Below the pieces are notes generated by a model. The model did not search any database, was not told the DNA's origin, and worked only from the letters and a program-made list of their open reading frames with translations. A program made the translations under genes and the position numbers. Below are positions 6,400-50,365 of a stretch of DNA of 64,000 bases, piece by piece. Positions within the stretch are counted from its first letter, which is position 1. Each line of letters starts with the position of its first letter. Origin of the DNA: Carboxylicivirga sp. M1479 (GTDB taxonomy: Bacteria; Bacteroidota; Bacteroidia; Bacteroidales; Marinilabiliaceae); assembly GCF_007097485.1 (NCBI RefSeq), contig NZ_VKDE01000001.1, forward strand, positions 64,925 through 128,924. The letters are read 5' to 3'.

Positions 6400-8235
6400 A
6401 TGTGTGGAATTGTTGCATACGTTGGAGGAAGGACAGCTTACCCAATTATTGTTAAGGGTTTGCAAAGGTTGGAATACAGGGGATACGACTCGGCCGGTAT
6501 AGCCCTTATTAATAGTGAGATAAACGTATATAAGTGCAAAGGTAAAGTAAAAGACCTTGAGGATCATACAAAGGGTAAATCCATTTCAGGTTCAATCGGT
6601 ATGGGACATACACGTTGGGCAACGCATGGTGAGCCTAGCGATAATAATGCTCACCCACACGTGTCGCAAAATGGTAAATTTATTGTGGTGCACAATGGTA
6701 TTATTGAGAATTATGCCCACCTCAAAACAGAGTTGATTAATCGAGGGTATGAATTTCAAAGCGAAACAGATACCGAAGTATTGGCTAACCTGATTGAGAA
6801 TATCTATATCGATCAAAAAGTGGATGCTGAAATGGCAGTTCGATTGGCTCTTACAAAAGTCGTTGGAGCCTACGGTTTGGTTATAACTTGTACCGACGAA
6901 AAAGATCAATTGATAGCAGCCCGAAAAGGCAGTCCGTTGGTAATCGGCGTTGGTGAGAAAGAATACTTTTTAGCATCAGACGCTACACCAATTATTGAGT
7001 ATACCGACCAAGTTATTTACATGAATGACGAGGAGGTAGCCGTTATTAAAAAGAATAACTTGACGTTAAAAAGCATTGAAAATGATGCGCTAAAGCCAAA
7101 AATTCAAAAGGTTAATTTAACCATTGATGAAATTGATAAGGGTGCTTATGAGCATTATATGCTAAAAGAAATATATGAGCAACCTATCTCAATCGAAGAT
7201 ACATTCCGTGGTCGAGTGTCAATGGATCACTCAAAAATATTTTTAGGAGGTATTACCGATGTGTTGCCAAAATTATCGCAGGCTCGACGCATAATTATCG
7301 CTGCTTGTGGTACCTCATGGCATGCTGGAATTGTTGGGGAGTATCTTTTTGAAGAGTTTGCTCGCACGCCCGTTGAGGTGGAATATGCCAGTGAATTCCG
7401 TTACCGTAATCCAGTTATTAATTCTGATGATGTAATAATTGCAATTTCGCAAAGTGGCGAAACGGCAGATACCTTGGCAGCCATTAAAATGGCCAAAGAA
7501 CAAGGAGCTACTATTATTGGTATTTGTAATGTGGCTGGCTCATCAATACCGCGCGAAACGCATGCCGGAGTTTATACCCATGCTGGTGTAGAAATAGGGG
7601 TGGCATCAACCAAAGCTTTTACCTCACAGGTAACAGTTCTTACTATGATGGCGTTTTTGTTAGGTAAAACAAAAGGCCATTTGCAAGATGTGGATTATAA
7701 AGAGTTAATTGGAGAATTAACCCAGGTGCCTGATAAAATCAGGACGATATTGGAATCTGAAGAACAAATAAAGCAAATAGCGGAAATGTATAAAGATGCC
7801 AATAATGCTCTTTATTTAGGACGAGGGTATCTTTTCCCTGTTGCTTTGGAAGGCGCTCTTAAACTGAAGGAAATTTCATATATTCACGCAGAAGGATATC
7901 CTGCAGCTGAAATGAAGCACGGACCAATTGCTTTAATCGATGAGAATATGCCTGTTTTTGTTTTAGCGACAAAGGACAAGTCATACGAAAAGATTGTAAG
8001 CAATATACAAGAAGTGAAAGCTCGTAATGGTAAAGTAATTGCCATCGTAACAAAAGGCGATGATGTGATAAAAAACATGGCCGATCATGTGATTGAAGTG
8101 CCTGATTGTCATGAAGCCATCGCGCCATTGTTAACTTGTGTGCCACTGCAGTTTATATCGTACCACATTGCAGTCATGCGAGGCTGTAATGTTGATCAAC
8201 CACGTAATCTGGCTAAGTCAGTTACAGTGGAATAA
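6400..8235 (+). CDS. glmS: Glutamine--fructose-6-phosphate aminotransferase (isomerizing)
   Basis: This is a 611-residue, full-length GlmS. It makes glucosamine-6-phosphate from fructose-6-phosphate and glutamine, the entry to UDP-GlcNAc for peptidoglycan and lipid A. The protein starts MCGIVAYVGGRTA, so Cys2 is the glutaminase nucleophile, which fixes the start codon. GHTRWATHGEPSDNNAHPH follows near residues 69-87. Two SIS domains follow, with AACGTSWHAG and SQSGETADTLAA in the first. The protein ends NLAKSVTVE, the typical GlmS tail. I see no glmS-ribozyme-like element upstream. Confidence 0.97.
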   Translation: MCGIVAYVGGRTAYPIIVKGLQRLEYRGYDSAGIALINSEINVYKCKGKVKDLEDHTKGKSISGSIGMGHTRWATHGEPSDNNAHPHVSQNGKFIVVHNGIIENYAHLKTELINRGYEFQSETDTEVLANLIENIYIDQKVDAEMAVRLALTKVVGAYGLVITCTDEKDQLIAARKGSPLVIGVGEKEYFLASDATPIIEYTDQVIYMNDEEVAVIKKNNLTLKSIENDALKPKIQKVNLTIDEIDKGAYEHYMLKEIYEQPISIEDTFRGRVSMDHSKIFLGGITDVLPKLSQARRIIIAACGTSWHAGIVGEYLFEEFARTPVEVEYASEFRYRNPVINSDDVIIAISQSGETADTLAAIKMAKEQGATIIGICNVAGSSIPRETHAGVYTHAGVEIGVASTKAFTSQVTVLTMMAFLLGKTKGHLQDVDYKELIGELTQVPDKIRTILESEEQIKQIAEMYKDANNALYLGRGYLFPVALEGALKLKEISYIHAEGYPAAEMKHGPIALIDENMPVFVLATKDKSYEKIVSNIQEVKARNGKVIAIVTKGDDVIKNMADHVIEVPDCHEAIAPLLTCVPLQFISYHIAVMRGCNVDQPRNLAKSVTVE

Positions 8236-8301
8236 TAATGATTACTTCGTTGTTATTCGATTTCGGATAACACTCATTGTAATATTTTAAGGTTTATCTC
8301 T

Positions 8302-8347
8302 CAGTAAAAGCCCGTTTGAAAAGTCATTCGGGCTTTACTTTTTTTAC
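8302..8347 (+). terminator. Rho-independent terminator after glmS
   Basis: The arms AGTAAAAGCCCG and CGGGCTTTACT are followed by a run of T. Confidence 0.85.
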
Positions 8348-8392
8348 GATGTACAGTAATTTATTTATCTTCATAGTCTTTGATCCAGATCT

Positions 8393-9058
8393 ATGAAAAA
8401 AATACTTTACGGAATGTCTTTAATGACTATCTTCCTGTTTTCTTGCTCTAAAGAACACGAAACGTACCCTAAAACTTATTCTTCTGATAGTGTTACAGAA
8501 GGTCATATACGCCTTTTTACCGCCAATGGAGAAGTTAAGGATAAGAGCTTAATTGATGACTTTATGAATCGTCATTGCAATGCTTTTATAAGTGCTGATA
8601 CTTTTGCTGTAGAGGGAGATATTAACGTTACATATCTTAGTGACCATGATATAAATATTTCGAGCCCTGCTGGTCAGGAAAATGGTCGTGCATATACAAT
8701 GAATAATTTAATTTATTGGGAGCATCCAGATACGTTAAGAACTTTTTATTTATCCCCACTATATAAATACAAACCTTTGTATGTTGACGAAGTGGCCGTT
8801 GCAAGCTCTACGGGATTCAATTCCATTTTTCTGTATAAAGAGTGTTTGTTTGTTCAGCGTCATCAAGGAAACCTGCGATTGCCAATGGTTAATCGCTTGC
8901 ATAAATTGAGTGATAATCCAATTTGGGATAATTCTATAACTTCTGAAAGAGTAAATAATGTATTTGATTATGAATATATTTATAGTGCCGATTATTCGAT
9001 AGGAATAAACGATACCATTATGGTTCAAGAGTTTTTTATTAACATAGCAGCTAACTAA
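8393..9058 (+). CDS. Predicted lipoprotein of unknown function
   Basis: This 221-residue protein has a lipoprotein signal peptide: MKK, a hydrophobic stretch and the lipobox LFSC with the lipidated Cys at residue 18. The mature part has many aromatic and Asp/Asn residues and no motif I recognise, so I assign no function. It is followed 13 bp later by a small membrane protein and may share a transcript with it. Confidence 0.7.
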   Translation: MKKILYGMSLMTIFLFSCSKEHETYPKTYSSDSVTEGHIRLFTANGEVKDKSLIDDFMNRHCNAFISADTFAVEGDINVTYLSDHDINISSPAGQENGRAYTMNNLIYWEHPDTLRTFYLSPLYKYKPLYVDEVAVASSTGFNSIFLYKECLFVQRHQGNLRLPMVNRLHKLSDNPIWDNSITSERVNNVFDYEYIYSADYSIGINDTIMVQEFFINIAAN

Positions 9059-41446: not shown

Positions 41447-42103
41447 ATGAAAGAGCTTATTGAATTTATAAAAACAGGAAGCTATTCGAGGGAATCGGTA
41501 ACTATAAAAGGGCTATTTAAGCTTTATCTATTGCACATAGCATGGTGCATACCTCTTTCCATTCCATTTATTGTTTTGAAATTTGTGGATGCTTTACCCA
41601 CCCATGCTTTTCAAAATATTGAAGATCCTTTGAAATTTATGTTTGGAGCAGTTTTTATAGCTCCCATTGTTGAGGAGCTGATTTTTCGTTGGCCTTTAGT
41701 GCCCACCAGGCTAAATATTAGTATTGCTCTATCGTTTTTTCTTACTTACGGAATTAAATATACACTTGGCTCTGCCTATGGTTATGAACTTTATTTGCAA
41801 AGTATACCTATTTGCATTCTTATCTATTTAGTGGCTCCCTTCATATGTATTGCTAAACAATTACCTTTTAAGTGCTTGATGCACTTCTTGGTTATTGCAT
41901 TTGGCTTTTTGCATATTTCTAATTTCACAGAGGTCTATTGGTGGATGTATCTCATATTTCCTGTGTTAACAGTGCCGCAAATCGTACTTGGTTATGTTTG
42001 CTCATTTGCCCGTATGAAATATGGTGTCGTCTACAGCATAATACTGCATGCTTTTAACAATTTAGTTGTGTGCATACCTTTGCTAATTAAGTATCTGCAT
42101 TAA
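41447..42103 (+). CDS. CPBP-family intramembrane metalloprotease
   Basis: This 218-residue protein has six or more hydrophobic helices. The CPBP/CAAX-protease motifs are visible: Glu-Glu-x-x-x-Arg in VEELIFRWPLV near residue 81, a His in FGFLHISNFTE near residue 157, and the terminal His-x-x-x-Asn in IILHAFNNLVV near residue 203. In bacteria such proteins often relate to bacteriocin immunity or membrane processing. The bacteriocin-like locus begins 2.4 kb away, but the LRR gene lies between, so a link is only speculative. Confidence 0.85.
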   Translation: MKELIEFIKTGSYSRESVTIKGLFKLYLLHIAWCIPLSIPFIVLKFVDALPTHAFQNIEDPLKFMFGAVFIAPIVEELIFRWPLVPTRLNISIALSFFLTYGIKYTLGSAYGYELYLQSIPICILIYLVAPFICIAKQLPFKCLMHFLVIAFGFLHISNFTEVYWWMYLIFPVLTVPQIVLGYVCSFARMKYGVVYSIILHAFNNLVVCIPLLIKYLH

Positions 42104-44126: not shown

Positions 44127-44505
44127 CCTAATTTAATCTTGATTGTGTGGTTAAATTAATTGCTATTGGTGTAGCCAGAGAGCGGGCGCAAAAGTAATAA
44201 AATTAGTGACTGAGCAGTATAGCGTAAGCTAGAAAAAGGGAAACAGGAGATTAGAAAAGATTTGAAAACAGCTAGTGTGAAAGATTGTAGGGCTAAGATT
44301 GATGATACTATTTTAGTTTAAAGCAATAGCAGCAAATACAAATATTAACTATGTTAACTTATGGGTTGATTTTTAGTGTAATAAATATGGGCATTCGTCA
44401 CTGAATAGTACACGTTAGTCAACGGAGTGCTGATTTTTCTTAAAATGGAGTGTTACGATAAGCGAATACTGCAATAAACCTACAAAGGTTTAAAGTTGAA
44501 TTATT
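44127..44505. other. 379-bp divergent intergenic region upstream of the peptide-export locus
   Basis: No ORF is supported. On the minus strand TACTTTTG at 44189-44196 fits the -7 consensus for the LRR gene. On the plus-strand side no clear -7 box precedes the first helix-turn-helix gene. The words CACGTTAG (near 44411) and TGTTACG (near 44450) loosely resemble half of the TGTAACGTTACA palindrome at 48510. Confidence 0.45.
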
Positions 44506-44811
44506 ATGAAACTATTTGATGAATTTGAAATTATAAGAAGAATGTTTGACTTAATTAGAAAGAAGCAAACGGGTTGTACAAGTACTTTTCATAAAAGGAT
44601 AGGCGTATCAAGAGGTAAGTTATACAACTTACTTAATGAATTACATGATATAGGAATTGTTATTAAGTACGATAAACATTTGAAATATTTCTATTTAAGG
44701 GATGATATAGAGGTTAATGTGGAGGCGCCAATCCAAGTGATTAAGAAGGATGAATTACGAAAGATTAGAGGCGGGTTTTCATATTCATTCCATTTTTTTG
44801 GACAAGGTTAG
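44506..44811 (+). CDS. Small helix-turn-helix protein with C-terminal double-glycine motif and 11-residue tail
   Basis: In this 101-residue protein, residues ~8-55 predict a winged-helix or HTH domain (FHKRIGVSRGKLYNLLNELH contains the putative recognition helix). A short beta-hairpin wing runs to ~70. Residues 80-90 read KKDELRKIRGG, matching the LSxxELxxIxGG consensus of leaders cut by C39-peptidase exporters. The tail after the double glycine is FSYSFHFFGQG. It is homologous end to end with the protein at 48180-48500, with the motif at the same residues (89-90). The HlyD and C39 exporter genes follow 38 bp later. I infer a DNA-binding protein fused to an exportable peptide, or a long-leader peptide precursor. 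I know of no described family. Confidence 0.85.
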   Translation: MKLFDEFEIIRRMFDLIRKKQTGCTSTFHKRIGVSRGKLYNLLNELHDIGIVIKYDKHLKYFYLRDDIEVNVEAPIQVIKKDELRKIRGGFSYSFHFFGQG

Positions 44812-44849
44812 TAGTAGTTTCGCACCAGCAATCAACATAACCTTAATTT

Positions 44850-46001
44850 ATGAAGAAGATCTTTCCGCCTGAGATTATTGCGCAGTCAACAGAAAAGCAC
44901 TTTTATGAGCATAATCGAAAATTCACTCGGATTTATGTCTTGAGCTTACTATTAATAGTTGCCTTACTCATTAGTTTGCCATTAATCTCTCTTGAAATCA
45001 CTACGCAAAGTAGAGGCATCATTCGCACTCCTTATGAGAATAATAAAATACAAGGCTCACTATCGGGTCAAGTGGTACTCAATAATTTGCGCGAGGGCGA
45101 TAAGGTAAAGGTAGCTGATACGCTTGTTGTGTTATGTAACGACCATCTACTTGAGCAAATAAGATTGGAAAAGAAGCAATTGGTAGAAAACAATGCATTT
45201 ATTGAAGATATTGTTAAGCTTCTGAGTGGTATATATAAGCTAAATACTAAAAAATATCAGCACGAAGCAACAACGTTTCAAGCTCAAATGCAAGAGTTAG
45301 AGGTTAATAAACGTATTTTAAAGAGAGAATATGATATTGCTGAAAGTTTGTTTAGCGATAAGGTAATGCCGGAGTTGGAGTATTTACAAAAGAAAAACAA
45401 ATACGAACTTCTTTTGTCGCAACTAGATCTTACAAAACGACAAGTATACAATAGTTGGCAAGCAGAAAAAACCAGACTAGAACAAGAGAACAGGAAGTTA
45501 AAATCCAGTATTTCAAAAACACAACTGGAATGTGAGAATTATATCGTTACTGCTCCAATATCAGGAACACTTTCAGAAGTAATTGGAATTTCTGAGGGAA
45601 GTTATATTACAATTGGGCAAGTATTGGCATATATTTCACCTGATGAACAGCTTATTGCTGAATGTTATATTAACCCAAAAGATATTGGGTATTTAACGGA
45701 AGGACAAACAGTAAGAATTCAACTAGATGCGTTTAACTACAATCAATGGGGCCTGATTCAGGGAGTAGTTACAACAATTACCGACGATGTTATAATTGTA
45801 AATAATCAACCGGTTTTTAAAGTGCGATGTAGCTTACCCGTTAATTATTTAAGTCTTAAATCAGGCCATAGGGGCTATTTAAAAAAGGGAATGACCTTAA
45901 CTAGTCGTTTTGTACTTACTAACCGCACATTGTATCAACTGCTTTTTGATAAAGTAGATGATTGGATGAACCCTAAATTAGTTTCTAATGATAAAGATTA
46001 A
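44850..46001 (+). CDS. HlyD-family membrane fusion protein (peptide exporter adaptor)
   Basis: In this 383-residue protein a short cytoplasmic N-terminus precedes one membrane helix at residues ~29-48. The first half of a biotinyl-lipoyl-like hairpin (QGSLSGQVVLNNLREGDKVK) follows. A long coiled coil runs over residues ~100-225, then the second lipoyl half (IVTAPISGTLSEVIGISEGS) and a beta-barrel domain. This is the periplasmic adaptor of a type I-like peptide exporter. It overlaps the C39 ABC transporter gene by 14 bp. No TolC-like gene is in the window, so an outer-membrane partner would be encoded elsewhere. Confidence 0.93.
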   Translation: MKKIFPPEIIAQSTEKHFYEHNRKFTRIYVLSLLLIVALLISLPLISLEITTQSRGIIRTPYENNKIQGSLSGQVVLNNLREGDKVKVADTLVVLCNDHLLEQIRLEKKQLVENNAFIEDIVKLLSGIYKLNTKKYQHEATTFQAQMQELEVNKRILKREYDIAESLFSDKVMPELEYLQKKNKYELLLSQLDLTKRQVYNSWQAEKTRLEQENRKLKSSISKTQLECENYIVTAPISGTLSEVIGISEGSYITIGQVLAYISPDEQLIAECYINPKDIGYLTEGQTVRIQLDAFNYNQWGLIQGVVTTITDDVIIVNNQPVFKVRCSLPVNYLSLKSGHRGYLKKGMTLTSRFVLTNRTLYQLLFDKVDDWMNPKLVSNDKD

Positions 46002-48156
46002 GCAACACGATATTACTGATTGCGGGGCTGCTTGCCTAGCTTCCATTGCCTCTCACTATAAATTAAAATTACCAGTATCACGAATACGGCAATTAGCAGG
46101 TACCGATAAGAAAGGTACCAATGTATTAGGCCTTATTAAAGCTGCAGAGAAAATGGGTTTTACTGCTAAAGGTGTTAAAGGAGGAGTTGATGCTTTGCCA
46201 AAAATTCCTTTACCAGCAATTGCTCATGTGGTGGTGAAGGAAGTACTACAGCATTATGTTGTTATTTATAAGGTTGCTAAAGAGCAGGTTGAATACATGG
46301 ACCCTGGCGATGGGCAAATGCATAAAGTTTCAATAGTTGAATTTGAGAAGCAATGGACTGGGGTTTTGGTTTTGTTGGCGCCCAATGACGACTTTATAGC
46401 CAGAAATGAAAAGGTATCTAATTTTAGCCGCTTTGTATTTTTAATTAAACCACACAAAAGTATCCTTGTGCAAGCCTTGTTAGGGGCAATTTTGTACACG
46501 GTACTGGGATTGTCTACATCCATCTATATTCAAAAGATAACTGATTATGTGTTGGTTGATGGTAATACCAACCTGTTAAACCTATTGAGTGTAGGAATGT
46601 TGGTTATCATCGTATTTCAGTTATTTATTGGTGTAGCTAAAACAATATTGATGTTGCGCACCGGTCAAATGATTGACGCTCGATTAATACTTGGTTATTA
46701 CAAGCATTTATTACGATTGCCACAGCGTTTTTTTGATACCATGCGTGTGGGGGAGATTATTTCACGTATTAATGATGCTGTTAAAATTAGGGCATTTATT
46801 AACGATACAGCGGTTAACCTTGTCGTTAATATTTTCATTGTGTTTTTCTCCTTTGGACTGATGTTTATATATAGTTGGAAACTAGCCCTGATTATGGCAA
46901 TTATTGTTCCGTTGTATGTGCTCATTTACTGGATTACGAATCGACTCAATAAAAAGCAAGAGCGTAAGGTGATGGAACACGCTGCTGAACTAGAAAGTCA
47001 GTTGGTTGAGTCACTTAACTCGGTGCGCACCATCAAACAATTTGGATTAGAGGATTTTACGAACGTAAAGACCGAAACACGTTTTATTACACTGCTTAAG
47101 ACTGTGTATAAATCAGGCATTAACTCCATTTTTGCCGGTAATTCATCTGAGTTTTTAAGTAGGGTGTTTACCATAGTACTACTGTGGGTAGGTTCCTATT
47201 TTGTTATAGACCAAACAATAACCCCAGGTGAGCTATTGTCGTTTTATGCTATTATTGGCTACTTTACTTCTCCAGCAGCTAGCCTAATTGGTATGAATAA
47301 AACGGTGCAGAACGCACTAATTGCGGCTGACCGTTTGTTTGAGATAATGGATTTGGAGCGTGAGTCAGATGAAAACAAAATAGAACTGCGTAAAGACTTA
47401 ATTGGAGATCTAAGATTTGAAAATATTTCTTTTAGCTATGGTACTCGCGTAGACGTTTTTGAGGAGTTTAATTTGATAATCCCTAAAGGTCGGCTGACGG
47501 CTATTATTGGCGAGAGTGGATCGGGGAAAACCACGCTGGCTGCTCTCATTCAGAAGCTATACCCTCTGAATAAAGGGAGTATATATATTGGGAAGCACAA
47601 CATCAATTATTTTAACAACGAAAGTTTACGACAGCTGGTGGCCAGTGTGCCTCAAAAGTTAGACTTGTTTGCTGGTAATGTGGTAGAAAATATTGCTGTT
47701 GGAGAATTTAATCCTGATATGGAAAAGATATTAGCGGTTTGTAATCAACTAGGGATACTCAAATTCATCGAAAACCTACCCAATGGCTTTAATACCTATT
47801 TGGGCGAAAATGGGGCGAGTGTTAGTGGTGGTCAAAAGCAACGATTAGCCATAGCTCGTGCTTTATATCGTGACCCAGAGGTGCTTGTTCTCGATGAGGC
47901 AACTTCGTCCCTTGATTCGGAGTCGGAAAGTTACGTACAGCGTACACTTGATAGTTTAAAACAGCAAGGTAAAACCATTGTTGTGATTGCCCACCGTTTA
48001 AGTACTGTGATGAATGCAGATAAGATTGTGGTGCTTGAAGAAGGTAAGCTAATAGAAGAAGGTACCCACTATCATTTGTTTGAACAACAAGGCAAATATT
48101 TTAATATGTGGCAAAAGCAAATGCCTCAATTGAAAGAAGAATTAGAGGCCAAGTGA
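45988..48156 (+). CDS. Peptidase-containing ABC transporter (C39 protease, TM and ATPase domains)
   Basis: In this 722-residue bacteriocin-type exporter, residues 1-135 are a C39 cysteine protease with Gln6, catalytic Cys12 (ITDCGAACLAS), His89 (VLQHYVVIY) and Asp105 (EYMDPGDG), so it should be active. Six transmembrane helices follow at ~155-440. The ATPase has Walker A GESGSGKTT near residue 508, signature VSGGQKQR, Walker B VLVLDEATSSLD and the switch His in VVIAHRLSTV. It removes double-glycine leaders while exporting the peptide. It has at least three candidate substrates in this locus (44506, 48180 and 48620). Confidence 0.96.
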   Translation: MIKIKQHDITDCGAACLASIASHYKLKLPVSRIRQLAGTDKKGTNVLGLIKAAEKMGFTAKGVKGGVDALPKIPLPAIAHVVVKEVLQHYVVIYKVAKEQVEYMDPGDGQMHKVSIVEFEKQWTGVLVLLAPNDDFIARNEKVSNFSRFVFLIKPHKSILVQALLGAILYTVLGLSTSIYIQKITDYVLVDGNTNLLNLLSVGMLVIIVFQLFIGVAKTILMLRTGQMIDARLILGYYKHLLRLPQRFFDTMRVGEIISRINDAVKIRAFINDTAVNLVVNIFIVFFSFGLMFIYSWKLALIMAIIVPLYVLIYWITNRLNKKQERKVMEHAAELESQLVESLNSVRTIKQFGLEDFTNVKTETRFITLLKTVYKSGINSIFAGNSSEFLSRVFTIVLLWVGSYFVIDQTITPGELLSFYAIIGYFTSPAASLIGMNKTVQNALIAADRLFEIMDLERESDENKIELRKDLIGDLRFENISFSYGTRVDVFEEFNLIIPKGRLTAIIGESGSGKTTLAALIQKLYPLNKGSIYIGKHNINYFNNESLRQLVASVPQKLDLFAGNVVENIAVGEFNPDMEKILAVCNQLGILKFIENLPNGFNTYLGENGASVSGGQKQRLAIARALYRDPEVLVLDEATSSLDSESESYVQRTLDSLKQQGKTIVVIAHRLSTVMNADKIVVLEEGKLIEEGTHYHLFEQQGKYFNMWQKQMPQLKEELEAK

Positions 48157-48179
48157 AAACATTATAAAACCAGAAACTT

Positions 48180-48500
48180 ATGATTCTATTGCATACACTT
48201 GAACGACTCAAGCAGATTAATGAGCTGATTAAAACAAAATCAACAGGCAAGCCCAAGGAGTTTTCAAAAAAGATTGGCATTAGCGAAAGTCACCTCTACC
48301 GTTGTATTAACGAGATTAAGGAGATGGGAGCTCCCATTAAGTTTTGTCGTAAAAGAGACTCTTATTATTACGAGAAAACCTTTGAAATTAAAGTCAATTA
48401 CTCCATTGAATTAGTATCGGAAGAGGAGAGTAGAAAAATAAACGCAGGTTTTAACTTAAATAATAGCTCACTACTTTTTTATGAGAGTGGGGGACTTTAG
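48180..48500 (+). CDS. Second small helix-turn-helix protein with GG-like motif and 16-residue tail
   Basis: This 106-residue protein is a homologue of the 44506-44811 protein along its whole length. The HTH segment is EFSKKIGISESHLYRCINEI, with a wing to ~75. Residues 79-90 read VSEEESRKINAG, a double-glycine-type site with Ala-Gly at 89-90, and the tail is FNLNNSSLLFYESGGL. Both proteins share Arg-Lys-Ile-x-x-Gly-Phe at the junction although the tails differ. The gene lies 23 bp after the exporter gene, and its stop codon overlaps the putative bacteriocin promoter. Functional assignment is inference. Confidence 0.85.
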   Translation: MILLHTLERLKQINELIKTKSTGKPKEFSKKIGISESHLYRCINEIKEMGAPIKFCRKRDSYYYEKTFEIKVNYSIELVSEEESRKINAGFNLNNSSLLFYESGGL

Positions 48501-48521
48501 TTTTGCACATGTAACGTTACA
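48498..48521 (+). promoter_or_regulatory. Putative bacteriocin promoter -7 box with 12-bp palindromic operator
   Basis: TAGTTTTG (48498-48505) fits TAnnTTTG and shares its first three bases with the stop codon of the second HTH gene. Five bases later TGTAACGTTACA (48510-48521) is a perfect palindrome where transcription should start. The pairing suggests a repressor or activator site. The -33 box is only a T-tract near 48475. Confidence 0.55.
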
Positions 48522-48526
48522 AAATA

Positions 48527-48581
48527 CCCCGATGGACAAGCTTGCAACTTTTCTTCCAACGGGGCGCTGGCCACAGCCAGC
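48527..48581 (+). promoter_or_regulatory. Two consecutive RNA hairpins in the bacteriocin 5' leader
   Basis: Hairpin 1 pairs CCCCGATGGA (48527-48536) with TCCAACGGGG (48555-48564), with one mismatch. Hairpin 2 is GCTGGC-caca-GCCAGC (48566-48581), perfect. No T-tract follows, so they look like leader structures rather than a terminator. The start codon is 38 bp downstream. Confidence 0.55.
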
Positions 48582-48619
48582 ACAAAATTAATTATTTTAT
48601 AAACTTAAATTTTGTGAAA

Positions 48620-48790
48620 ATGAAAAATTTAAATGATTTAGGCGTTCAGGAGTTAAGCAAAAAAGACATGAAGAAAACTGATGGAGGTGGTTGGAGAGGT
48701 GCAATTGCCGGTGCATGTCTAGGAGCAATGACTGGAAACCCTGCCGGAGTTTTGATTGGTGCTATCGCCGGTGCATTTATTTTAGACTAA
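48620..48790 (+). CDS. Class IIb-like bacteriocin precursor with glycine-zipper core
   Basis: This is a 56-residue precursor. Residues 1-23 form a double-glycine leader (MKNLNDLGVQELSKKDMK, ending TDGG) and residues 24-56 a 33-residue hydrophobic core. In the core, glycine occupies positions 4, 8, 12, 16, 20, 24 and 28, an unbroken GxxxG ladder, and GAIAGA occurs twice. It has one Cys (core position 10), so no disulfide. The longer frame from 48542 would run through the hairpin leader; the ATG at 48620 gives the standard leader. It is a likely substrate of the C39 exporter. No immunity gene is recognised. Confidence 0.9.
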   Translation: MKNLNDLGVQELSKKDMKKTDGGGWRGAIAGACLGAMTGNPAGVLIGAIAGAFILD

Positions 48791-48796
48791 ATTTGG

Positions 48797-48832
48797 AAAT
48801 AGTCACTATTGACTCAATAGTGACTATTTTTA
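48797..48832 (+). terminator. Rho-independent terminator between the bacteriocin and MutS-like genes
   Basis: AAATAGTCACTATT and its exact complement flank a 5-nt loop, with a T-tract. The next gene starts 7 bp later, so it is transcribed by read-through or from a promoter I cannot see. Confidence 0.85.
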
Positions 48833-48838
48833 CTTCAT

Positions 48839-50365
48839 ATGATTTTACCAAATAACGACTTTAAATCCATAGCGGATTATTTCAAAAAGAGTAAAGAAAA
48901 TACTGATCGAACAGTTAATGATCGTACTTGTATCGATTTGGATTTTCATGATTTCTTTAATTCTGTTGATTATACCCAGTCAAAGCCTGGGCAGCAATGC
49001 CTGTACGCCCGCTTAAGAAACTTGGGTAATGGCTTGTTAGGTGTTGATTCGTCGGAACAGTTAATTCATTTTCTACAAGAAAACCATGAGGCACTAAATC
49101 GGGTAAAAAAGAACCTGAACCGTCTGAATAGTCATGATGCCTACTATATAAATTCCCTGTTTCAAGATGAACCATTGGCAAAGCCTAAGTGGCTTTGGTT
49201 AATGCCAATTTTATCATTTACGAGTTTAGCCTTGAGTGTTCTTTCTTTTTTTCAATTCATATTTTTGGTGCCTTTAATACTGTTGGTAGTAGTCAATTTA
49301 TTAATCCATTATTGGAATAAGAAGAACGTGTATGTCTATATAAACGGCATATCTCAATTGTTAGAATTAATACGATGTGCCAAATTATTGGACAAAGAAG
49401 ATCTGCCTCAGCTACCTGGTATTGGTGATGATATCAAATTATTGCAGACACTTAAGTGGCAATTTGCATTTTTTAAAATTGAATCGAAGTTTCAGAGTGA
49501 TTTTACAATGCTTTTGTGGGGAGTGTTCGAATTGATAAAAATTATAGGTTTGTTAGAGCCTTTATTATTTTACAAAACTATTGGATCGATTAGTAATAAG
49601 AGGAGTGCAATTAAACGAGTGTTTCAATATGTAGGAGAGCTTGACGTTATGGTCTCAACTATTCGCTTACGAGAAAACTTACCATTTTATTGCCTTCCTA
49701 AGATAAACGATGAAAACCAATTTGAGGGATTCGAAGTTTATCATCCTTTGATTGAAAAGTGTGTTACAAATTCATTTAGCCTTAGCAACAAGTCTATGTT
49801 ACTTACAGGATCAAATATGTCAGGTAAGACATCTTTTATTCGCATGGTTGGCTTGAACGCGATAGCAGCTTTTGCTCTTAACACTTGTTTCGCATCGAAA
49901 TTTACTTTGCCAATTTTGAGTATTTTTTCGGCCATACGCATGAGTGATGATTTGCTAAATGATAAAAGCTATTACTTTGAAGAGGTTCTGACAATCAAGC
50001 ACCTGTTAGATATGAGTAAGCAAAAGCCGTGTCTGCTATTGCTTGATGAAGTATTTAAAGGAACCAATACCATTGAACGTATTGCCATTGCTAAATCTGT
50101 ATTATCTGATTTGGCTCATAAAACAAATTTTGTACTGGCAGCTACTCACGATATTGAATTGACCGAACTGTTATCGCATCAATATGATCTATTCCATTTT
50201 TGTGAGCAAGTAAATAATAGGGATGTTGATTTTGATTATCGATTAAAAGAGGGAGCCTTAAAACAAACGAATGCAATCCGTATTCTCGAAGCGAATGCTT
50301 ATCCGGCATCAGTTGTATCTGAAGCAAGAGTCATTGCTAATAAGCTGCAGTTACAAAATAATTAA
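48839..50365 (+). CDS. Membrane-anchored MutS-like ATPase
   Basis: In this 508-residue protein, residues ~1-115 are soluble and helical. Two membrane helices lie at ~119-157. A helical lever-like region follows, then a MutS domain V ATPase: Walker A GSNMSGKT (324-331), Walker B LLLLDEVFKGTN with Asp403-Glu404, and His437 in ATHDIELTEL. It lacks the mismatch-recognition and connector domains of MutS. Such membrane MutS-like proteins occur in Bacteroidota without known function. Its place behind the bacteriocin gene suggests a link, but this is inference. Confidence 0.85.
   Translation: MILPNNDFKSIADYFKKSKENTDRTVNDRTCIDLDFHDFFNSVDYTQSKPGQQCLYARLRNLGNGLLGVDSSEQLIHFLQENHEALNRVKKNLNRLNSHDAYYINSLFQDEPLAKPKWLWLMPILSFTSLALSVLSFFQFIFLVPLILLVVVNLLIHYWNKKNVYVYINGISQLLELIRCAKLLDKEDLPQLPGIGDDIKLLQTLKWQFAFFKIESKFQSDFTMLLWGVFELIKIIGLLEPLLFYKTIGSISNKRSAIKRVFQYVGELDVMVSTIRLRENLPFYCLPKINDENQFEGFEVYHPLIEKCVTNSFSLSNKSMLLTGSNMSGKTSFIRMVGLNAIAAFALNTCFASKFTLPILSIFSAIRMSDDLLNDKSYYFEEVLTIKHLLDMSKQKPCLLLLDEVFKGTNTIERIAIAKSVLSDLAHKTNFVLAATHDIELTELLSHQYDLFHFCEQVNNRDVDFDYRLKEGALKQTNAIRILEANAYPASVVSEARVIANKLQLQNN

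Follow-up and report, generated by a model that had tools for sequence, protein, structure and literature searches.

Peptides that leave the cell through C39 exporters, bacteriocins and pheromones among them, carry a textbook double-glycine leader pattern (Leu at −12, Glu at −8, Leu or Met at −7, Ile at −4 and Gly-Gly at −2 and −1), are often encoded near the exporter and have variable cargo. C39 domains bind leader helices. In the NHLP and Nif11 precursors of ribosomally synthesized and post-translationally modified peptides (RiPPs), a folded leader domain stands ahead of the Gly-Gly (GG) cut site, and the anti-sigma factor FlgM is exported by the flagellar type III system. Here we analyse a 64,000-nucleotide stretch of the 5.4-Mb genome of Carboxylicivirga sp. 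M1479 (Bacteroidota; contig NZ_VKDE01000001.1, positions 64,925 to 128,924; hereafter the window), in which two small helix-turn-helix (HTH) proteins, HTH1 and HTH2, flank a C39 exporter and themselves end in a C39-type leader motif and a short tail. From sequence comparison we consider it probable (roughly 0.55) that both are regulators of their own peptide-export locus and also substrates of its C39 exporter, which suggests that a single Bacteroidota protein may be both a gene regulator and a secreted message or export sensor.

The two proteins, their putative processing sites and the exporter are placed as follows (here and below, L-numbers denote homologue loci, G-numbers genomes and C-numbers contigs of the window's own genome).

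44506..44811, forward strand: HTH1, an HTH protein of 101 residues with a GG leader motif and an 11-residue tail (open reading frame (ORF), homology, matrix score)
44740..44775, forward strand: leader motif of HTH1, residues 79-90, IKKDELRKIRGG (matrix score 9.7 against a 99th percentile of 2.0)
44776..44808, forward strand: tail of HTH1, FSYSFHFFGQG (relatives: SVHFFGQVLF in L051, SVHFFGQTMT in L052)
44850..46001, forward strand: HlyD-type membrane fusion protein of the exporter (PF13437 over cut-off; TIGR01843 below cut-off)
45988..48156, forward strand: C39 peptidase/ATP-binding cassette (ABC) exporter (PF03412, 2.4e-36; TIGR01193, 548.9 bits against a cut-off of 523.85)
48180..48500, forward strand: HTH2, an HTH protein of 106 residues with an Ala-Gly (AG) leader motif and a 16-residue tail (winged helix in the AlphaFold model)
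48414..48449, forward strand: leader motif of HTH2, residues 79-90, VSEEESRKINAG (matrix score 7.1)
48450..48497, forward strand: tail of HTH2, FNLNNSSLLFYESGGL (matrix-scored site)

An earlier reading made from the letters alone (the sequence-only reading) had proposed both ORFs, their tails of 11 and 16 residues, their homology to each other and their position on either side of the exporter, and all of this was borne out; HTH1 and HTH2 are 32% identical across 104 columns (E = 9e-19 in a single comparison). The catalytic Cys, His and Asp motifs of the window exporter (DCGAAC, HYVV and DPG) are present in a pattern check, and the arrangement HTH1, HlyD, C39 exporter, HTH2 is found again in L049, L051, L052 and L057.

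The putative sites end at residue 90 in both proteins, after IRGG in HTH1 (C terminus IKKDELRKIRGG-FSYSFHFFGQG) and after INAG in HTH2 (C terminus VSEEESRKINAG-FNLNNSSLLFYESGGL), and both proteins meet the leader consensus of C39 substrates at −12, −8, −7 and −4. What precedes the site is a 90-residue stretch with a winged helix-turn-helix (wHTH) domain, not a short leader right after the start codon. Homologues were drawn from the own genome and from four wider sets of genomes, with matches in 35 of 71 at the family level (E threshold 1e-3), in 51 of 295 at the order level (1e-5), in 35 of 395 at the class level (1e-12) and in 25 of 395 at the phylum level (1e-12); the draws share genomes, and every tally counts the own genome. 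Among nonredundant homologues with C-terminal extensions of at least 32 residues, 35 of 45 have a GG in the allowed stretch (at least 12 residues into the extension and at least 5 from its end), whereas 1000 shuffles gave 4.5 on average and never more than 11. The residues ahead of GG in 37 nonredundant forms agree with the textbook pattern (Leu, Ile or Val at −12 in 28; Glu at −8 in 22, and Asp or Gln in 11; Leu or Met at −7 in 22; Ile at −4 in 22).

Sites were also scored with a matrix whose training set was 91 small GG ORFs close to C39 exporters; chosen by rule, this set has no HTH proteins in it and may include false members. The threshold of 2.0 is the 99th percentile of 2117 GG sites in long ORFs. 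Mean scores were 3.8 for the sites of 89 distinct site-bearing homologues (12 of them near-GG sites, some doubtful), −7.1 for their shuffles and −12.3 for the long-ORF sites. The threshold was exceeded by 61 of the 89 HTH sites, by 6% of shuffled sites, by 82 of the 91 training peptides and by both window sites (9.7 for HTH1 and 7.1 for HTH2). The shuffles and the long-ORF sites together rule out a chance origin of the leader motif.

Beyond the site lies a tail that is kept and that changes fast. The best site (GG, AG, GA or GS) scores above the threshold in 64 of 191 distinct homologues; a tail of 11-39 residues follows in 63 of these, the other (L235) stopping at GG. Pooled ratios of nonsynonymous to synonymous change (dN/dS) rise from 0.13 in the HTH through 0.22 in the leader stretch to 0.57 in the tail, which matches the diverging tails of the sequence-only reading. 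These values come from 16 close pairs that are not independent (15 informative; L136/L137 gave no sites owing to a coordinate error at a contig edge); five pairs whose tails differ by more than 4 residues in length, and pairs whose HTHs do so, were left out, and the omission of pairs with very unlike tail lengths biases the tail value downwards. At 70-80% HTH identity (22 pairs) leaders are 47% and tails 30% identical, with 17% for random tails; at 80-97% (20 pairs) the figures are 75% and 60%. Even near-identical HTHs can carry unlike tails (L241/L244, HTH 97% and tail 38%; L239/L243, 91% and 19%). Subfamilies nevertheless keep tail motifs of their own, S(V/F)HFFGQ, CFFxAR and RPxxLDG.

Homologues with a site are also found near C39 exporters more often than those without. 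Of 39 site-bearing homologues, 29 have a C39 ORF on the same strand no more than 5 kb away, as do 20 of 62 without a site (Fisher p = 4e-5), counting only homologues with at least 5 kb on both sides and including L174, a doubtful case, as site-bearing; after thinning to 60% HTH identity the counts are 18 of 28 and 12 of 42 (p = 0.006). The homologue comparison proposed with the sequence-only reading, for a conserved HTH and GG site with variable tails near C39 exporters, was in this way positive. All three C39 motifs were recognized by simple patterns in 23 of the 29 exporters near site-bearing genes, a set that excludes most class-level loci and in which the misses may reflect limits of the patterns or broken genes. 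The own genome has five family members and three C39 genes (both at E 1e-5), and no C39 gene is without a member close by: two members are in the window, one is a GG form on C55 (3.4 kb away) and one a short form on C56 (1.3 kb). All three site-bearing members adjoin an exporter; the fifth member, on C13, is a short form with no C39 ORF in the surrounding 14 kb.

The AlphaFold model of HTH2 is a winged helix with block confidence values (predicted local distance difference test) of 90-94 over residues 11-60; from residue 71 or so onwards confidence is low. The top solved folds found with Foldseek included the DNA-binding domains of NiaR, CggR, BirA and IclR and a BirA-type regulator (probability 0.98-0.99, E 0.03-0.12), and Z-DNA-binding domains were also among the matches. 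The nearest Pfam models fell short of their cut-offs (for HTH2, HTH_11 with 23.2 against 25 bits; for HTH1, TrmB as the best model with 17.7 against 25.6 bits), and 14 of 21 aligned members matched HTH_11 at E 0.01 or better among the matches listed. Given the predicted winged-helix fold and the HTH_11 matches, the HTH proteins probably bind DNA. A sequence search of the Protein Data Bank (PDB) with the family profile returned weak matches only, many of them to antibodies, and PADLOC gave only weak matches, to the HTH parts of CARF, WYL and Csa3 models.

A candidate target for such binding lies directly downstream of HTH2, where the locus continues as follows.

48510..48521, no strand: palindrome TGTAACGTTACA, candidate operator between HTH2 and the GG peptide gene (single exact copy in the own genome)
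48527..48619, forward strand: conserved 5' leader of the GG peptide mRNA, with three predicted stems (10-sequence alignment)
48620..48790, forward strand: ordinary double-glycine bacteriocin-like peptide of 56 residues (TIGR03949, 22.5 bits against a cut-off of 21.5; PF10439 below cut-off)
48839..50365, forward strand: MutS domain V ATPase (PF00488; membership in the system uncertain)

The gene order of the whole locus is HTH1, HlyD, C39 exporter, HTH2, palindrome, leader RNA, GG peptide and MutS domain V ATPase, and the GG peptide is likely a main cargo of the window exporter. The palindrome, already named by the sequence-only reading, has its only exact copy in the own genome here. Its 10-bp core is found in seven other loci at the same place relative to the HTH gene: 10-48 bp after the gene in L049, L051, L052, L057, L066 and L069, and within the last HTH-GG codons of L141 (1220-1229, GTAACGTTAC), where it encodes the end of the tail. 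The 12-mer occurs in nine of the 71 family genomes (9 copies), four times right after an HTH gene (G000, G009, G013 and G017), once before a GG peptide gene (G012, L274, whose 3-kb stretch has neither an HTH nor an exporter ORF), once ahead of what is left of the same 5' leader (G019, L278) and three times elsewhere.

The 5' leader was aligned from ten sequences (window 48527-48619, L049, L051, L052, two from L057, L066, L069, L274 and L085). Of its 23 predicted pairs, 2 show changes on both sides, both in the middle stem, and the last stem stops just before the start codon. Six copies are present in five of 14 genomes of the genus, all five of which hold such loci. An Rfam scan of 44150-48860 gave a single match, far below the gathering score. 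By eye, L051, L057, L066 and L278 have an extra stretch between the palindrome and the CCCCGATGGA leader that is absent in the window, L049, L052 and L069; this stretch may be a small element that is mobile or has been duplicated. A terminator-like inverted repeat (AGTCTCA..TGAGACT) stands at the 3' ends of the HTH genes of L049, L051, L052, L057, L062, L066 and L069 and has the form ACTCTCA..TGAGAGT in L236; no such repeat is listed for the window gene.

Building on the architecture, the leader match, the kept and fast-diverging tails, the C39 association, the predicted fold and the placement of the palindrome, we infer the following mechanism, in which cutting, export, DNA binding, the pairing of HTH and site, the regulatory direction and what the tail does are all putative. 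DNA would be bound by the wHTH domain (roughly residues 1-65), perhaps at the palindrome ahead of the GG peptide gene, with residues 79-90 as the C39 leader motif and the last 11-16 residues as cargo. Once assembled and free, the exporter would use its C39 domain to cut behind GG or AG and would send out the tail, and the trimmed wHTH would remain in the cytoplasm. The cut would tell the peptide gene's promoter how much export capacity the cell has and would release a peptide in the same step; outside, the tail may act as a signal or as a minor antimicrobial. For a single chain that combines a regulator-type domain with a C39 leader and a tail that is kept yet changes fast, cutting by the exporter would be the simplest account.

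Several observations weigh against this reading. The sequence-only reading had described a double-glycine site in each protein, which stands for HTH1; the pair in HTH2 is Ala-Gly, not Gly-Gly, and its site is therefore less canonical. Counting HTH2, 7 of the 89 distinct homologues with a site have AG as the pair, and the available text of PMC10986499 gives Gly-Gly, Gly-Ala and Gly-Ser as the accepted pairs for C39 substrates at −2 and −1. Foldseek gave no match for HTH2 at E 0.001 or better, and no Pfam HTH model was over its cut-off for either window protein. The palindrome adjoins only 8 of the 89 site-bearing genes and is not over-represented across the 71 genomes, as its reversed control is commoner (13 copies against 9); only its placement is telling. 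It is absent after L062, a close relative with the same type of recognition helix, and present at L141, where that helix is unlike, so that the recognition helix could not be used to assign the palindrome to one HTH.

Exporter context is likewise not uniform. The 20 of 62 site-less homologues that lie near a C39 exporter mean that proximity does not require a tail, and 10 of the 39 site-bearing forms have no same-strand C39 ORF within 5 kb. Among these ten, the exporter is on the opposite strand in L261 and at about 6 kb in L265 and L266, apparent exporter fragments adjoin the HTH gene in L047 and L254, L137 stands among LanC-like genes, and L266 has both LanC-like and LanB-like neighbours (with LanC-like matches under their cut-offs); L174 has a doubtful site, and L074, L080 and L090 have no explanation of this kind. 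The HTH-GG protein of L261 belongs to a cluster with grasp-with-spasm ATP-grasp and SPASM enzymes, both over cut-off. On the best HTH tree the site trait needs 29 changes, against a shuffled mean of 46, and supported branches force 3; with only 3 usable independent pairs on well-supported branches of a poorly resolved tree, the phylogenetic test of the link between GG site and C39 exporter is without power, and its labels, looser than those of the 5-kb count, included the doubtful L058, L100, L140 and L174.

Relatives without a site or tail also exist. The first 125 stretches hold 141 homologues, of which 54 have GG and a tail, 4 a near-GG site, 9 a long extension without a site and 74 a short form. 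Homologues lacking the GG motif or a C39 exporter had been named beforehand as evidence against the design; such homologues do make up a subset, as many lack both site and tail, yet those are also less often near a C39 exporter. For the order, class and phylum, the search profile was built from site-bearing proteins, and the resulting tallies therefore favour such forms. With this bias, 9 of the 25 genomes with matches in the phylum draw fall outside the window's class, and in 8 of the 9 the best match has a GG or AG site and a tail; for exporter context these nine out-of-class relatives were read only 1.5 kb to either side. The family is widespread in Bacteroidota, and site-bearing relatives are present both in and outside the window's class. 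We regard it as possible, at somewhat below even odds, that they form a phylum-wide class of one-protein signalling in which regulator, C39 leader and secreted peptide share one chain, and in which each export event would release a strain-specific peptide and convert the regulator of the locus.

Of the hypotheses offered by the sequence-only reading, both a regulator carrying its own exported peptide and a long-leader precursor fit the data. In the latter, the closest rival, the wHTH would be only a carrier or recognition domain and the tail the product, with no gene regulation. The leader motif and the tails as measured, which diverge fastest, are what such a precursor would have, and some members do sit in LanC-like, LanB-like or grasp-with-spasm clusters. 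We nevertheless find it less likely than the regulator reading, because the HTH is well conserved (dN/dS 0.13) and common to tailless homologues that have no cargo; the HTH_11 matches of 14 of the 21 aligned members, among those listed, and the candidate short-leader GG peptides present in many of the same loci also argue against it.

Alternatively, the tail could be an internal degradation or inhibitory segment, with the C39 cut stabilizing or activating the regulator and the released tail having no function outside. Several tails do finish in small hydrophobic residues (for example -LAV, -TAV and -ASAI), and tails diverge quickly; the subfamily motifs given above are kept beyond the needs of a loose degron, and we judge this account improbable. 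About as doubtful is docking only, in which the C39 domain would hold the regulator through its leader motif as a sensor of transport load, without a cut and with an irrelevant tail. The affinity of C39 domains for leader helices and the stronger conservation of the leader stretch than of the tail would suit it; what counts against docking alone, the third hypothesis of the sequence-only reading, is that 63 of the 64 strong sites have another 11-39 residues behind them and that 55 of the 64 have exactly GG as their pair. That the sites go unprocessed and the tails are neutral extensions of regulators sitting in peptide loci by chance is very improbable: tailless homologues, which indicate that the HTH can do without the tail, and the AG of HTH2 speak for it, and the match to ordinary GG leaders at −12, −8, −7 and −4, the C39 association and the single strong site in 64 that ends its protein speak against it.

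Some further observations concern individual members and neighbours. Three near-identical HTH-GG copies in L078 and two in L050, each within about 13 kb, suggest recent duplication. A headless copy of 65 residues in L057 (14122-14319) has the wing, leader motif and tail and no HTH helices. A clade of short HTH members (L091, L094, L096, L100, L101, L102 and L190, the last being own contig C56) ends in approximately (K/R)W(V/I)E; its members adjoin HlyD and a less similar C39 exporter and have no GG tail. Next to the HTH-GG gene of L090, a 323-residue ORF (7856-8827) begins with a GG leader-like start followed by a hydrophobic segment. Ten ORFs across the 125 stretches, the window's included, match MutS domain V; besides the window they lie near L057, L065, L074, L086, L091, L094, L096, L097 and L100, and the relatives of 850-930 residues in L091, L094, L096, L097 and L100 may be ordinary MutS-type genes. 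Upstream of the locus, at 41447-42103, the window has a gene for an Rce1/CPBP-like membrane protease (PF02517 over cut-off), and weak CPBP matches also adjoin the HTH gene in L254.

That the sequence-only reading knew of no described family of this design agrees with what we found. NCBIfam has no model for HTH1 or HTH2 at E 1, and for 21 members no HTH-GG model and no NHLP or Nif11 leader family was among the Pfam and NCBIfam matches listed (the first 25 of 43 and of 27 families), which were mostly generic HTH models plus a weak bacteriocin model for three. No PqqD-type domain was among the Pfam matches listed; a remote likeness of two winged-helix folds is possible. A literature search, which covered no preprints and few subscription journals, found no description of the HTH-GG design. 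The available text of PMC10352776 reports one peptide cluster of Bacteroidales with an HTH gene in it, and that of PMC8939145 HTH proteins near graspetide genes, in neither case with mention of a GG tail. HetC of Nostoc is a C39 exporter with a regulatory role rather than one in toxin export; its substrate is unidentified, and no HTH-GG fusion is described in the available text of the source (PMC10986499).

If the proposed reading is right, Bacteroidota would gain a form of peptide-based regulation in a single chain, with transcription tied directly to export, and the HTH-GG signature would help to find C39 peptide loci. It would also predict short secreted peptides, 63 among the sequences examined, which gene finders would overlook because they are located at the ends of regulators.

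Set beside the described systems, the proteins share parts with several. Compared with C39 double-glycine peptides, whose leader pattern they have, their leader part is about 90 residues long and holds a wHTH, and the cargo is shorter, richer in Phe and poorer in Gly than 91 candidate ordinary cores (median 21 against 33 residues; Phe 12.0% against 4.6%; Gly 3.9% against 10.8%). With small HTH_11-like wHTH regulators, such as the DNA-binding domains of the BirA and NiaR type, they share the predicted fold and the HTH sequence pattern; here there is no ligand or enzyme domain, and the C terminus is an export-type signal and a tail. The likeness to NHLP and Nif11 long leaders lies in a folded domain before a GG site, and the domain is a different one; should the HTH be only a carrier, the design would be another form of long-leader precursor. 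With FlgM they would share, by analogy, the principle that a secretion machine controls a regulator; in their case an ABC exporter would do the cutting, on a protein of DNA-binding type. The leader motif, the exporter and the wHTH are each known, and we rate the design as new because we know of no kind that joins a regulator and a C39 cargo in one chain; with its function proposed from sequence, this joining would add a new category to those compared here.

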